Shown here one piece after another: positions 3,194 to 34,798 of a DNA stretch of 35,006 nucleotides. Below the pieces are notes generated by a model, which was not told the DNA's origin, ran no database searches, and worked only from the letters and a program-made list of their open reading frames with translations. Made by a program: the position numbers and the translations under genes. This DNA comes from Porphyromonas levii DSM 23370 (lineage in GTDB: Bacteria > Bacteroidota > Bacteroidia > Bacteroidales > Porphyromonadaceae): the NCBI RefSeq assembly GCF_000379925.1, contig NZ_KB904244.1:1-35006 (forward strand), read 5' to 3'. Position 1 is the stretch's first letter. The number at the start of each line of letters is the position of its first letter.

Positions 3194-4552
3194 ATGAATA
3201 AGTTTGACGTAGCTGTGATTGGCGGAGGACCTGGTGGTTACAATGCCGCTGCTATTGCCAGTAAATCTGGACTAAAGACTGTACTATTCGAGAAAAATAA
3301 AGTGGGCGGTTGCTGTCTCAATGAAGGTTGTATCCCCACAAAAGCTCTTCTGCATAGTGCCAATATGCTGGATGCTTTCAAGGAGGCTAAGAAGTATGGA
3401 ATCAACGTAGAGGGTGAAGTAACTGGAGACTACAAGAAGGTGGCGGCACGAAAGGGCAAGATTGTACGCAAACTAGTCGCTGGTGTAGGACAAAAGCTCT
3501 CTAATGCTGGAGTAACGACGATTCAGGGTCTGGCTACACTTGCTGGCGAGACGCCTGAGGGTATCAAAATAGAGGCGAATGGGGAGACCTATATTGCCGA
3601 TAAATTGATTCTTGCGACTGGCTCGGAAGCATTCGTGCCACCTATTCAAGGTCTCAAGGATGTAGAGTTCTGGACGAGCCGAGAAGCACTAGATGCTAAG
3701 GAGTTGCCTGCTAGTATCCTTATTGTTGGTGGCGGTGTTATTGGCATGGAGTTTGTGAGTGTGTACAATAGCTTTGGCGTAGAGGTGACTGTGGTGGAGA
3801 TGCTCCCAAAGATTCTTGGTCCTATGGATGGCGCTATCTCTTCCCAGTTACAAGAAGAGTACGAAAAGAGGGGCGTAAAGTTTTATCTCAATACAAAGGT
3901 TGTGGCAGCTTCAGCTACCGGACTTACGATTGAGCTATCAGACGGCACAAAGCAGGAGCTAGAGGGAGAACGTATCCTAGTGAGTGCTGGGCGTCGTCCT
4001 GTACTAAATGGCTTCGGATTGGAGACACTTGGTCTAAAGATGGAGCGTAACATAGTGGTAGATGAGTATCTGCAAACCTCTAACTCTAGAGTCTATGCCA
4101 TAGGAGATGCCAATGGGAAGTCGATGCTTGCACATACAGCCTACCGAGAGGGCGAGGTGGCTATCAAGCATATCCTACATGGAGAAGGCGACCCAATGCG
4201 CTACGATGTTATTCCAGGCGTGGTATACACTCATCCTGAGATTGCTGGTGTCGGTGCTACGGAGGAAGAGCTACAAAAGGCTGGAATAGACTATGAGGTG
4301 CTTGGTCTAGCAGCGAGCTATGCAGGCAGATTTGTGGTGGAGAATGAGGGAGGCAATGGCTACTTCAAACTCCTGGTGGATAAGCAGAGCCAACGTATTT
4401 TAGGTGGTCACATGATTGGGAACCCAGCTTCTGAGATTATTGTGACGGTAGGCATGGCTATGACTGAGAACCTCACTGTGGAGGACTTTAAGAGCCATGT
4501 ATTCCCACACCCAACTGTTGCTGAGATAGTTCACGAAGCACTGTTCGAATAG
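3194..4552 (+). CDS. lpdA: Dihydrolipoamide dehydrogenase (E3)
   Basis: FAD-dependent enzyme that reoxidises dihydrolipoamide of 2-oxoacid dehydrogenase or glycine-cleavage complexes with NAD+. From the ATG at 3194 it has 452 residues: FAD motif IGGGPGGYNAA at the N-terminus, redox disulfide GGCCLNEGCIPTK near residues 37-50, NAD motif GGGVIGMEF near 180, second FAD motif YAIGDANG near 305, and dimer-interface FPHPTVAEIVHEALFE at the C-terminus with the catalytic His-Glu pair. The open frame reaches back to 3005, but those 63 residues are unlike the family, so ATG 3194 is chosen. No E1/E2 genes are adjacent, so which complex it serves is not shown here. Confidence 0.95.
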   Translation: MNKFDVAVIGGGPGGYNAAAIASKSGLKTVLFEKNKVGGCCLNEGCIPTKALLHSANMLDAFKEAKKYGINVEGEVTGDYKKVAARKGKIVRKLVAGVGQKLSNAGVTTIQGLATLAGETPEGIKIEANGETYIADKLILATGSEAFVPPIQGLKDVEFWTSREALDAKELPASILIVGGGVIGMEFVSVYNSFGVEVTVVEMLPKILGPMDGAISSQLQEEYEKRGVKFYLNTKVVAASATGLTIELSDGTKQELEGERILVSAGRRPVLNGFGLETLGLKMERNIVVDEYLQTSNSRVYAIGDANGKSMLAHTAYREGEVAIKHILHGEGDPMRYDVIPGVVYTHPEIAGVGATEEELQKAGIDYEVLGLAASYAGRFVVENEGGNGYFKLLVDKQSQRILGGHMIGNPASEIIVTVGMAMTENLTVEDFKSHVFPHPTVAEIVHEALFE

Positions 4553-4667
4553 TCTCATACTCTGATTCGATATGATATATTATTCCAATTATCATGGGAT
4601 ATTCGTTGTGTATATACAACTAACGTTAATGAGCTGATATTATAACGCGTCTGGACAGAAATATCAC

Positions 4668-4675
4668 TATATTTG
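4668..4675 (+). promoter_or_regulatory. Possible -7 box upstream of the ecotin-like gene
   Basis: TATATTTG fits the Bacteroidota -7 consensus and lies 54 bases before the start codon, in the 176-base gap after lpd. No TTTG is found 19-21 bases upstream, so only half of the promoter is supported. Confidence 0.4.
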
Positions 4676-4728
4676 TTCAAAATAGCAATTATCACTTATT
4701 ATTTTGTTACTTGAGTTTTTATCAGATT

Positions 4729-5775
4729 ATGAAGTACAATATGCAGACAAAGCAATTAATTACATTGGCTTGCGTGCTCTTCATTTCCGTGTCGGCCATG
4801 GGGCAAGAGCAAAGAGAGATAAATAGTGAGTTGGACTTTGATAGGTCGGTATACCCAACAGTCTCTTCCGATCAGAGGCAAGTAGTGATCCATCTACCAG
4901 CCAAGGAAGATCTATCAATGGAAAGCAATTACAAGGTGGAGCTTATAGGTGGTAAGACGATGACCGTCGACTGCAATAGGCATGGTCTGGATGGCTCTTG
5001 GGAGAAAAAGACTGTGGAAGGGATGGGGTACACGTATTACACGTTTACTTCTGATGGCAAAGCATGGAGCACCATGATGGGGTGCCCTGAGGAGAGTAAG
5101 CATGAAGCTTTTGTAGCGGCAGAGCCTCTAATGATAGATTACAATAGCCGGTTACCGATAGTTGTGTACCTGCCAAAGGGGTTTGAATTGAGGTATAGAA
5201 TATGGACATCGGGGACGCTCTTAGACCCTGATCATCCAGAATATATTCCACAAGCAGGGGATGAAGCACTTTTTCAAACTTGGGAGTGGAAAAGCTCTTT
5301 GGATAGCTTTACAAATAGCTTCGTTCCGCTAGAGCAAACAGGACTAAGCAAAAGGTACACCTTCTATAAGGATGGTAGATTCCAGAAGTTTATGGATGGG
5401 GAGATGACCCCAGGTGGGCGCTATAGGCTGGGTAATGATGGCTCTGTATTTGTCAAAGGTAAGTTGCCAATGATTGTCATCGAGGGCTTGGAGCAGGGTA
5501 TGTCCTATGCTATCGAAGGCAATAAACTTATCCTAACAGAGGAGCGTGCCAACGGGTATAAGCATACGTACGTATTGAAAATGATACCCAAGATTCAAGA
5601 CTGTCCAGACTCTATCATAGAGAATAGGATGCCCATGGTTACGGATCCCGAGTCGAAAGCTGAACCTACGCCATCGGTCTACTATATTTATAAGGGTAGA
5701 CGACATGAGGTTGCGGAGTTTGATGCTGAGTGGGTGAAGAAGCATTGTAACGTGGAGACACAGGTCGTCTTCTGA
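4729..5775 (+). CDS. Secreted ecotin-type serine protease inhibitor with C-terminal extension
   Basis: Predicted 348 residues. Residues 1-26 form a signal peptide (ITLACVLFISVSAMGQ, cleavage after AMGQ likely). Residues ~40-162 follow ecotin closely: RQVVIHLPAKED, KVELIGGKTMTVDCNRH, KKTVEGMGYTYYTF, STMMGCP, YNSRLPIVVYLP, YRIW. Ecotin is a periplasmic dimer that blocks trypsin-fold serine proteases. Its P1 Met is present (Met116 in STMM), as is the cysteine pair (Cys82, Cys119). Ecotins normally end near the YRxW arm (~142 mature residues). Here ~185 residues follow, including a stretch that looks lipocalin-like (~170-275: YTFYKDGRFQ, GGRYRLGNDG, YAIEGNKLILT) and an unplaced tail (~290-348). 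No type IX secretion C-terminal domain is evident. Start: ATG 4729 places Lys near the signal; ATG 4741 is also possible. Confidence 0.88.
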   Translation: MKYNMQTKQLITLACVLFISVSAMGQEQREINSELDFDRSVYPTVSSDQRQVVIHLPAKEDLSMESNYKVELIGGKTMTVDCNRHGLDGSWEKKTVEGMGYTYYTFTSDGKAWSTMMGCPEESKHEAFVAAEPLMIDYNSRLPIVVYLPKGFELRYRIWTSGTLLDPDHPEYIPQAGDEALFQTWEWKSSLDSFTNSFVPLEQTGLSKRYTFYKDGRFQKFMDGEMTPGGRYRLGNDGSVFVKGKLPMIVIEGLEQGMSYAIEGNKLILTEERANGYKHTYVLKMIPKIQDCPDSIIENRMPMVTDPESKAEPTPSVYYIYKGRRHEVAEFDAEWVKKHCNVETQVVF

Positions 5776-5789
5776 TAACCAATTGAATA

Positions 5790-5834
5790 CAAGAAGGGCT
5801 ACGTAGACTTTGTGAAACTACGTAGCGCTTCTTG
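5790..5834. terminator. Bidirectional terminator, GGCTACGTAG type
   Basis: 17-bp stem (5790-5806 with 5818-5834, one mismatch) and an 11-base loop, placed between convergent genes ending at 5775 (+) and 5854 (-). The stem carries the GGCTACGTAG core also found at 14941 and 16324. There is little U-run on either side. Confidence 0.75.
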
Positions 5835-5853
5835 GTATTCTGATTGCTAGTCC

Positions 5854-13291: not shown

Positions 13292-14920
13292 ATGGTACTA
13301 CTTAGATATTTGGCACTCTCAGGGCTTGGTATAGCTCTATTCTACTTGATAGATAGGCTTATACTCTGGAAAAGTACACTACTCCGGACTCAGAGGTACT
13401 ACTATGTCATTGCCATAGTGGCAAGCCTATTTCTTCCTCTCTTGCCTGAGATTACACCTTGGTGGCAGTCTCGAGTGGCAGAGGCCAATATCCCCACTTT
13501 TACAATTATCCTAGAGGATGAGTTTGTGGTTACGGCCGAACAGAGCCAGTCGATAGACTGGTGGGGTGTGGCTAAGTTAGTTTGGTTGGCGGGCATCTTA
13601 GTCACGGGAGGTTGGCTATTGGTGGGTATCGTGAGCATTTTTCGGATTCAGCACCATGCCGACCACCAGCATCTACCTAATTCTGTGAACCTTTACCTCA
13701 CTGAAGCGGAGCTCGCCCCTTTTACCTTCGGTAAGTCTATTTACATCCCTCGGTCGCTGAACGACCGCACAATCATAGACTCCATACTGCTGCATGAGCT
13801 GGAGCACATACAGCAACGACACTATATAGATATGCTATTGGGCTGTGTGCTGCAGCTGGTCCAGTGGTGGAATCCATTTGCATGGAGTATGCTCCAACAG
13901 CAACGCAATACCCTAGAGTACCTAGCAGACCAAGGTGTATTGCGCTTGGGTAAGGACCGTAAGACCTATCAGTATCATCTACTGGCGTGCACAATGGGTC
14001 GAATGGTACAACTGCCCTCCCTATCTTTTTCGATGCAAAACCTAAAACAAAGAATTGTGATGATGAATAGTAATAAGAAAAGCCATAAGAGCTTAGCGGT
14101 TCTGTACGCTGTAGCAGCTCTGCCTGTTGTTGCACTCCTACTTGTAGGTACGCAAATGATAACCGTGAAGGAAGCATTAGCTACCGAGACTACAGAGGTC
14201 GCTCCTCCGCCAGAAAAGGATGGTGAAATTTTCGAGTTTGTCGAAGATATGCCGGAATTCCCTGGAGGTATTGACGCTCTCATGAAATGGCTCGGTGAAA
14301 ATATCAAGTACCCAGAGGAGGCGGAAAAGCAGAATATTCAGGGAAGAGTGATGGTACACTTTGTGGTAGAGACAGATGGCTCCGTTTCTAATCCTCAAAT
14401 AGCTAGAAGTGTACATGAATCGCTAGATGCCGAGGCTGTGCGAGTAGTAGCAGCTCTGCCGAAGTGGACACCAGGTAAGGCTGAGGGCAAGCCAGTTCGA
14501 GTTCGCTTTACGCTACCTATTTCTTTTGCTCTTAAGAACAAGGTGACAGAAGGAGAGAAGGATAAGGTATACGATTATGTCGATAATATGCCTGAATTTC
14601 CTGGCGGACAGGCTGCAATGATGAAGTGGCTTAGTGAGAATATCAAGTATCCAGATGTAGCAGTGAAGGAGAATATTCAGGGAAGAGTAATGCTTAGTTT
14701 TGTTATAGAGACCGACGGCTCTCTCTCTGATGTTAAAGTAGTAAAAGGGGTGCACGAAGCTTTGGATGCTGAAGCGATAAGAGTGGTGAAGATGATGCCT
14801 AATTGGAAGCCTGCATCGCTTAAGGATGGTACCTTGGCTAGAGTAGCATTTGTGTTGCCTGTACAATTTAGGTTCGCAAAAGAGAAAACCGATACGCCAG
14901 ATCAAAACGAAAGCAAATAA
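13292..14920 (+). CDS. BlaR1-like M56 membrane peptidase with two TonB C-terminal domains
   Basis: 542 residues. N-terminal membrane segments (FYLIDRLILW; YVIAIVASLFLPLLP; LVWLAGILVTGGWLLVGIV) precede the zinc motif HELEH (168-172) in LLHELEHIQQRH, with EYLADQGVLRLG downstream as in M56 peptidases. A further membrane helix (LAVLYAVAALPVVALLLVG) lies near residue 275. Two consecutive TonB C-terminal domains follow (~310-410 and ~425-530), each with the pattern MPEFPGG...ENIKYP...NIQGRV...ETDGS...LDAEAxRVV. They are similar enough to be an internal duplication. It probably senses an envelope signal and relieves repression by the adjacent BlaI-type protein; the TonB parts may bind outer-membrane receptors. 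Closed by a strong terminator. Confidence 0.93.
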   Translation: MVLLRYLALSGLGIALFYLIDRLILWKSTLLRTQRYYYVIAIVASLFLPLLPEITPWWQSRVAEANIPTFTIILEDEFVVTAEQSQSIDWWGVAKLVWLAGILVTGGWLLVGIVSIFRIQHHADHQHLPNSVNLYLTEAELAPFTFGKSIYIPRSLNDRTIIDSILLHELEHIQQRHYIDMLLGCVLQLVQWWNPFAWSMLQQQRNTLEYLADQGVLRLGKDRKTYQYHLLACTMGRMVQLPSLSFSMQNLKQRIVMMNSNKKSHKSLAVLYAVAALPVVALLLVGTQMITVKEALATETTEVAPPPEKDGEIFEFVEDMPEFPGGIDALMKWLGENIKYPEEAEKQNIQGRVMVHFVVETDGSVSNPQIARSVHESLDAEAVRVVAALPKWTPGKAEGKPVRVRFTLPISFALKNKVTEGEKDKVYDYVDNMPEFPGGQAAMMKWLSENIKYPDVAVKENIQGRVMLSFVIETDGSLSDVKVVKGVHEALDAEAIRVVKMMPNWKPASLKDGTLARVAFVLPVQFRFAKEKTDTPDQNESK

Positions 14921-33822: not shown

Positions 33823-34722
33823 TTAGTTACGTTCGATAGGATTGTAGGGTAATGAAAACTTGTTTACCTTCTGATACCTATCATTGACTTTCTCTACCAA
33901 ATATATCCTAGTGGTCAGTAGATACTGTGTAGTTTTGCTGTAGGCTTTCTCTACGGTCGCTCTTACTTTCTCCCTCGTTGTTGGCACATAGTTCCACTGG
34001 TATTGGTTAATTGTCTCTTTTGTCTTGGGCACTACAATCCCTGTGCAGCTCCAGTGGTAGTGTCCCTCCTTATCTTGAATATCCAAGATGAGTCCTGGTA
34101 ATCCATCAAACTTATAAGGTCCGTCACGGAAAGGCAATTCAGTAGTAAACCAGGCCTCGTAGGTGCGCCCCCTAAAGTCCGTTACTCCTTTCTGGCAGTT
34201 ATATCCGAGGATAACTTTCTTCTCTCCAGTGAGTCGCCAGTTGAAAGCTGGTTTATTGTCCGCATATCTATAGACATCATCAAAACCAAATAAGCGAAGC
34301 GTGACAATATCTTCCTTCTGCCCACCATAAGGCGAATACTTATATACCTCCTCCCCAACGGTAGGGTAAATAAAGGCATTCCGTACCCACACACGTTCGC
34401 CACTAGAGACTTCTTCATTAGTCCATAATAAATCTTCTTTGTGCAGAGTTTGGCTATAGCACTTGGAGACTTTCGTCCCAATCTCTAAGGTTAAGATATC
34501 CTCGAAAGTCCCCTCCTCGTATTCTGGCGCCAAATTCATGGTTACAGTATAGGTCACGATGAGCTTCGCTTCATCTATTACATCATACGAAGTCGTCAGT
34601 TGAAAGTCAGGCGCTATTCCAAGCTCTTGTGCCTTAACCGCCTGACCCTGCCTGAATCCTTGCTGAGCAAATATTTGCAAGGGACAGAGAATAAGCAAGG
34701 AGATAAAGAGAATCTGCTTCAT
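33823..34722 (-). CDS. GLPGLI family secreted protein
   Basis: 299 residues from the ATG at 34722; the frame extends upstream into the IS end, but MKQILFISLLILCPLQIFAQ is a clear signal peptide at this start. The family motif is present in PYKFDGLPGLILDIQDKEGHYHW, preceded by KVILGYNCQKGVTDFRGRTYEAWFTTELPFRDGP, the conserved family stretch. Function unknown. The barrel gene follows downstream. The IS5-like element begins ~13 bases upstream of the ATG, so the native promoter is displaced or lost. Confidence 0.92.
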   Translation of the reverse strand: MKQILFISLLILCPLQIFAQQGFRQGQAVKAQELGIAPDFQLTTSYDVIDEAKLIVTYTVTMNLAPEYEEGTFEDILTLEIGTKVSKCYSQTLHKEDLLWTNEEVSSGERVWVRNAFIYPTVGEEVYKYSPYGGQKEDIVTLRLFGFDDVYRYADNKPAFNWRLTGEKKVILGYNCQKGVTDFRGRTYEAWFTTELPFRDGPYKFDGLPGLILDIQDKEGHYHWSCTGIVVPKTKETINQYQWNYVPTTREKVRATVEKAYSKTTQYLLTTRIYLVEKVNDRYQKVNKFSLPYNPIERN

Positions 34723-34766
34723 ATCACTATCTTTTGAGACTGTTGCACAAAAAACTGCGTTAAACA

Positions 34767-34798
34767 CTTGTTTATCTCATTGGTTATCAGTATATTTG
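34767..34798 (+). promoter_or_regulatory. Promoter of the IS transposase
   Basis: -33-like CTTG (34767-34770), 20-base spacer, -7 TATATTTG (34791-34798). Start near 34804, ~29 bases before the transposase ATG. Confidence 0.62.

Follow-up and report, generated by a model that had tools for sequence, protein, structure and literature searches.

The gene at positions 4729–5775 (+) of the window, the whole 35,006-nucleotide stretch of Porphyromonas levii DSM 23370 DNA that was analysed, encodes a single protein of 348 residues in which an ecotin domain is followed by a linker, by a second domain that profile comparison places with a family of Bacteroidales lipoproteins, and by a C-terminal tail. 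The complete combination of an ecotin domain and a putative lipocalin-like domain was found in one genome only. On balance, we lean towards reading the protein as an exported, horizontally gained inhibitor of S1 proteases, made up of an ecotin, a lipocalin-like domain akin to envelope lipoproteins and the tail.

Gene and protein architecture

The original prediction that both parts belong to one protein is upheld by the reading frame, which runs without interruption for 348 codons from an ATG at 4729 to a stop at 5773–5775 and gives a chain of 37.1 kDa; an alternative TTG start is possible at 4711. The order of the parts, beginning with a signal peptide recognized by eye, is given in Table 1. 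The GC and GC3 contents of the two protein parts are alike and resemble those of the neighbouring genes. The inverted repeat downstream of the gene is a possible terminator; a terminator scan found none by its own rule.

Table 1. Positions of features in the window and, in the last five rows, starts of the double-ecotin frames of the sister genus in their own loci
Feature	Residues	Position	Strand	Basis or remark
Signal peptide	1–25	4729..4803	+	By eye; cleaved after Ala-Met-Gly; ends without a lipobox-like Cys
Ecotin domain	40–160	4846..5208	+	Pfam PF03974, genome search, AlphaFold2, Foldseek
Cys82	82	4972..4974	+	Invariant in alignment of 27 ecotins
Reactive loop STMM, P1 Met116	114–117	5068..5079	+	Alignment
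Cys119	119	5083–5085	+	Invariant in alignment of 27 ecotins
Linker (18 residues)	161–178	5209..5262	+	After the ecotin C-terminal arm; lies between two profile matches
Second domain, putatively lipocalin-like	179–284	5263..5580	+	Profiles of free lipoproteins; Lipocalin_4 link
C-terminal tail, with Cys292 and Cys340	285–348	5581..5772	+	No relative found
Inverted repeat, 17-nt arms, 94% complementary		5790..5834		Between the convergent ecotin and DUF7017 genes
Double-ecotin frame, L002		916	+	
Double-ecotin frame, L003		964	+	
Double-ecotin frame, L004		877	-	
Double-ecotin frame, L005		907	-	
Double-ecotin frame, L006		937	-	

The ecotin domain

Ecotin belongs to the known inhibitors of trypsin-like enzymes, and its family is presumably MEROPS I11. 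The original prediction had placed an ecotin domain at residues ~40–162 and proposed a search against models of the family. The Pfam model (PF03974) matches residues 40–160 at E 8.3e-43, aligning positions 3–121 of its 122 and scoring 145.7 bits against a cut-off of 22.2, while the NCBIfam ecotin equivalog model gives E 2.3e-45 and 154 bits, just below its cut-off of 162. Against PDB sequences, phmmer likewise returned ecotin (E 4.7e-28), and a search of the genome with an ecotin profile (E 2.2e-43) found this as its sole ecotin, with one such domain in the protein. In an AlphaFold2 prediction made with 26 other ecotins, the blocks across residues 41–160 have pLDDT values of 91–97. All 29 Foldseek matches in the PDB at E <= 0.001 are ecotin chains (for example 1slu_A, E 1.1e-13, TM 0.87 by target), and the fold matches include complexes of ecotin with trypsin, MASP-2 and neutrophil elastase. 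By sequence and by predicted fold, the domain is a member of the ecotin family. The P1 Met of the STMM motif and the cysteines lie at the positions claimed for them; we take Met116 to be P1 from the alignment and the E. coli numbering (Met84), and assume that Cys82 and Cys119 pair as the ecotin disulfide.

The second domain and its free-standing relatives

Searches of the extension against Pfam, NCBIfam and PDB sequences gave no direct family match that was taken as real. No lipocalin family appeared in Pfam up to E 10, and the META family was matched at E 0.23 with the full protein and not at all with the extension alone. A search with the extension through 295 genomes of the order, where about 15 genomes are expected by chance at E <= 0.05, gave 25 places in 24 genomes at this threshold, the own genome included. 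Seven short proteins from six genomes align across the whole second domain, the best at E 3.8e-5; the remaining places, many of them HipA-like kinases by eye, were discarded as chance. A profile built from these seven proteins without the extension (A3) finds the second domain at E 1.3e-13, its sole match in the P. levii genome up to E 10, and has matches at E <= 1e-4 in 29 of 344 genomes, P. levii included. Because the seven had been chosen with the extension itself, a second profile was made from eight further members (L147–L154), two of which come from genera of the A3 seven. This profile matches the protein at E 2.1e-11, whereas 2000 shuffled versions of the extension gave nothing better than 0.22; the eight were chosen through A3, so this test is one step removed and not fully independent.

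Thus delimited, the domain aligns with 15 free-standing Bacteroidales lipoproteins, and the profile comparisons identify it as kin of that family. It retains the W-x-W motif and several other family positions, and lacks the Gly-Gly motif of its free relatives. In all 15 of these, by eye, the signal peptide ends at a Cys, and the domain would therefore work at the envelope elsewhere. The relatives stand alone with this lipobox-like Cys, whereas the P. levii domain is internal and has none. Elsewhere among the family's 38 genomes the second domain is clearly present in none, and there is one weak match, at E 0.0044. The idea that the extension is a decayed second ecotin domain was rejected, as it matches the lipoprotein profile and the protein holds one ecotin domain.

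The free family (L141–L154) consists of proteins of about 130–160 residues marked by W-x-W, Gly-Gly and TPxxTG, and in one genome (G292) three members stand in a row. Pfam scans of ten of the 15 free relatives gave no family above its cut-off. Apart from models of lipocalins and lipoprotein sites, their Pfam matches were put down to chance (the strongest, E 0.00056, is below its cut-off), as were their NCBIfam matches.

The link to lipocalins passes through intermediates. None of the ten scanned relatives reaches a Pfam lipocalin cut-off, and one matches Lipocalin_4, at E 0.43. Three bridging proteins (L160, L161 and L164), hand-picked from among the more distant A3 matches (E 1.4e-7 to 2.0e-5) after one of them had matched Lipocalin_4, all match that model, the best at E 4.5e-5. 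Comparison of the bridging profile with the family profile by hhalign gave a probability of 97.4% with signal peptides and of 86.3% (E 4.8e-6) once these were removed, the best of 50 column-shuffled controls reaching 1.9%. The family profile had no match among PDB sequences up to E 10. When the extension is modelled alone, strands are predicted with a mean pLDDT of 43.7, too low for a dependable fold; in the full AlphaFold2 model its blocks range from 30 to 83, and the linker is below 50 from residue 164 on. A lipocalin-like stretch had been predicted at ~170–275; its position stands to within about ten residues, and its lipocalin-like identity is supported indirectly, through kinship at one remove from Lipocalin_4.

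The further tail, predicted at ~290–348, is present from residue 285; no relative of it was found by Pfam or by a search of the 38 genomes of the family, in which 7 genomes, P. levii included, gave matches at E <= 1 and the best other match had E 0.18.

Distribution and origin

The distribution of ecotin is patchy. Counting the P. levii genome in each case, ecotin occurs in 6 of the family's 38 genomes (1 of 12 in its genus and 5 of 26 in the sister genus), in 6 of 393 genomes drawn from the order and in 5 of 395 drawn from the phylum. In the order and phylum samples, the ecotin frames outside the family have 145–186 residues, which leaves no room for an extension of this size. Named genomes were scanned as well; the best 80 of 260 ecotin loci yielded 84 distinct other ecotin ORFs, with 0–14 residues after the matched stretch in all 84, and no match to the extension at E <= 0.01 among the ORFs of those loci. 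The rarity of the arrangement is supported, with no second case among these 84. The accompanying statement that known ecotins stop at the C-terminal arm holds for the same 84 ORFs and fails for Leishmania ISP3, which is extended C-terminally according to the consulted part of PMC2659362.

The closest named ecotin is that of Prevotella sp. OH937_COT-195 (55% over 119 columns). The pair receives an SH-aLRT value of 92, below the mark of 95, on few columns and a long branch, and is nested within a mostly Pseudomonadota fork with support of 90. Nesting of Bacteroidetes ecotins among those of Proteobacteria is described in the consulted part of PMC9904509. Chryseobacterium sp. ERMR1:04 carries an array of four ecotin ORFs (L111, 2363–5699).

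The P. levii gene lies between a convergent pair, a gene that we take to encode a dihydrolipoyl dehydrogenase-like protein and a DUF7017 gene, beyond which stand what are presumably trpS and ssb. The DUF7017 gene is present in 7 of 12 genomes of the genus, P. levii included, and in all six relatives trpS and ssb are on its far side, as here. The dehydrogenase gene falls inside the 1.5 kb flank in two of these six, something else following in the other four. The slot measures 1301 bases in P. levii (4553–5853) and holds the ecotin gene; in one relative (L048, G036) it comprises 119 bases between the two stops (3514–3632), and in another (L047, G032) it is occupied by a DDE transposase (3628–4539). 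The slot is an insertion-prone site. Since a single one of the genus's 12 genomes carries ecotin and the slot is near-empty in one relative and transposase-filled in another, the gene was probably gained horizontally. This pattern is consistent with gain at a permissive site and speaks against the contig being foreign, and the resemblance of GC and GC3 to the neighbours means that the gain was not recent or that the donor was similar.

The 17 window ORFs scanned were mostly ordinary. One 542-residue protein (13292–14920, +) joins a Peptidase_M56 domain to TonB_C in two stretches, and a gene at 33823–34767 (-) has Porph_ging and PNGase_F-II_N matches and adjoins one for a protein with a CarboxypepD_reg-like match.

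Proposed function and alternative readings

In the reading that we favour, the protein would be exported by the putative signal peptide, the ecotin part would dimerise as ecotins do, to an expected mass of about 74 kDa, and Met116 would mediate substrate-like inhibition of a broad range of trypsin-fold (S1) serine proteases. The second domain would form a beta-barrel that binds or anchors, keeping the inhibitor close to the cell surface or attached to a ligand, and the inhibitor may protect the bacterium against proteases of an animal host. The consulted part of PMC5893882 reports that Pseudomonas ecotin binds the matrix polysaccharide Psl and still inhibits neutrophil elastase, a precedent for the importance of localisation. 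Ecotin is also put to use as a secretion partner, with the cargo fused to its C-terminus, according to the part of PMC2649888 consulted, and such fusions can therefore be exported. The extension, placed at the dimer arm, could hinder dimerisation. A natural fusion of ecotin with a binding domain would illustrate one way for a bacterium to direct a protease inhibitor of broad range to a given site or partner, and, for the free lipoprotein family, a fusion partner is a clue to function.

The ecotin might instead work as usual while the extension is the neutral passenger of an accidental gene fusion. Occurrence in one genome only, a tail devoid of relatives and loss of the family's Gly-Gly motif all speak for such a passenger; however, the W-x-W motif and several other family positions have been kept and the frame stays open across 184 further codons, and we regard the passenger as rather doubtful. 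An origin by assembly error or frameshift, joining an ecotin gene to a lipoprotein gene, would agree with the draft state of the genome (124 contigs) and with the absence of the join from the other genomes examined. Since the parts share one frame across an 18-residue linker that bears no remnant of a signal peptide or of the lipobox Cys found in 15 of 15 free relatives, a frameshift join seems unlikely from the sequence. The GC and GC3 contents of the parts are similar, no free copy of the second domain exists elsewhere in the genome, and the trpS-ssb-DUF7017 order is kept in all six relatives with the DUF7017 gene. Taken as a whole, an artefact of this kind is very improbable.

A different role for the second domain would be to block another protease class, so that one protein inhibits two kinds. 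Lipocalin-like inhibitors do exist, the potempins of Tannerella being eight-stranded barrels and the staphostatins a further case. For Bacteroides fragilis, the consulted part of PMC2873492 describes predicted staphostatin-like Bfi proteins next to C10 cysteine proteases. Against this stands the inspection by eye of 14 loci of free relatives, about 1.5 kb on each side, in which no protease neighbour recurred and single peptidase-like genes were seen in L142, L148 and L154. No peptidase was found adjoining the ecotin gene, the nearest found being the M56 domain at 13.3 kb, and the lack of any PDB sequence match to the family profile also counts against such a role. We consider this double inhibition unlikely, and slightly less likely still its fullest form, in which ecotin and a lipocalin-type head for a second protease class would make a two-headed inhibitor and, through the ecotin arm, a four-headed dimer.

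Relation to known ecotins and to the double ecotins of the sister genus

Ecotin is usually a one-domain inhibitor. The P. levii protein shares with ordinary ecotins the whole domain, the reactive loop, the Cys pair and the predicted fold, but it has about 185 further residues where the 84 others have 0–14. Ending just after the C-terminal arm is usual for ecotins and does not define them, as ISP3 differs in this respect. In the consulted parts of PMC2659362 and PMC9904509, this 41.8 kDa Leishmania protein has an ecotin domain at its N-terminus and, after it, a large C-terminal domain, for which the 2009 paper (PMC2659362, in the same part) found no relative. The likeness, drawn from these descriptions, lies in a large C-terminal domain after the ecotin domain; the difference is that ISP3 belongs to a eukaryote and, in the consulted part of the 2009 paper, lacks the P1 Met. 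A C-terminally extended ecotin is thus already known, and the P. levii architecture, though unusual, has a precedent in it. Neither an ecotin with a lipocalin domain nor a double ecotin was found in the titles and abstract openings searched, among which few subscription journals were represented.

Ecotin proteins have also been enlarged in the sister genus, where 5 of 26 genomes hold frames of 315–336 residues. They differ from the P. levii gene in that the additional part is a second ecotin-like half and not a lipocalin-like domain, and they are placed apart from it in the tree, on long branches. Together with the P. levii fusion, they suggest that the family has remodelled ecotin more than once. 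Each consists of one open frame with two ecotin-like halves, and is possibly a single-chain pseudo-dimer. In L002 each half is recognized clearly (E 7e-25 and 5e-34), while L003–L006 have a clear C half and a degenerate N half that the ecotin profile matches weakly or not at all. At P1 the alignment puts Arg or Lys in the C halves, and L003–L006 carry a lipobox-like Cys, recognized by eye.
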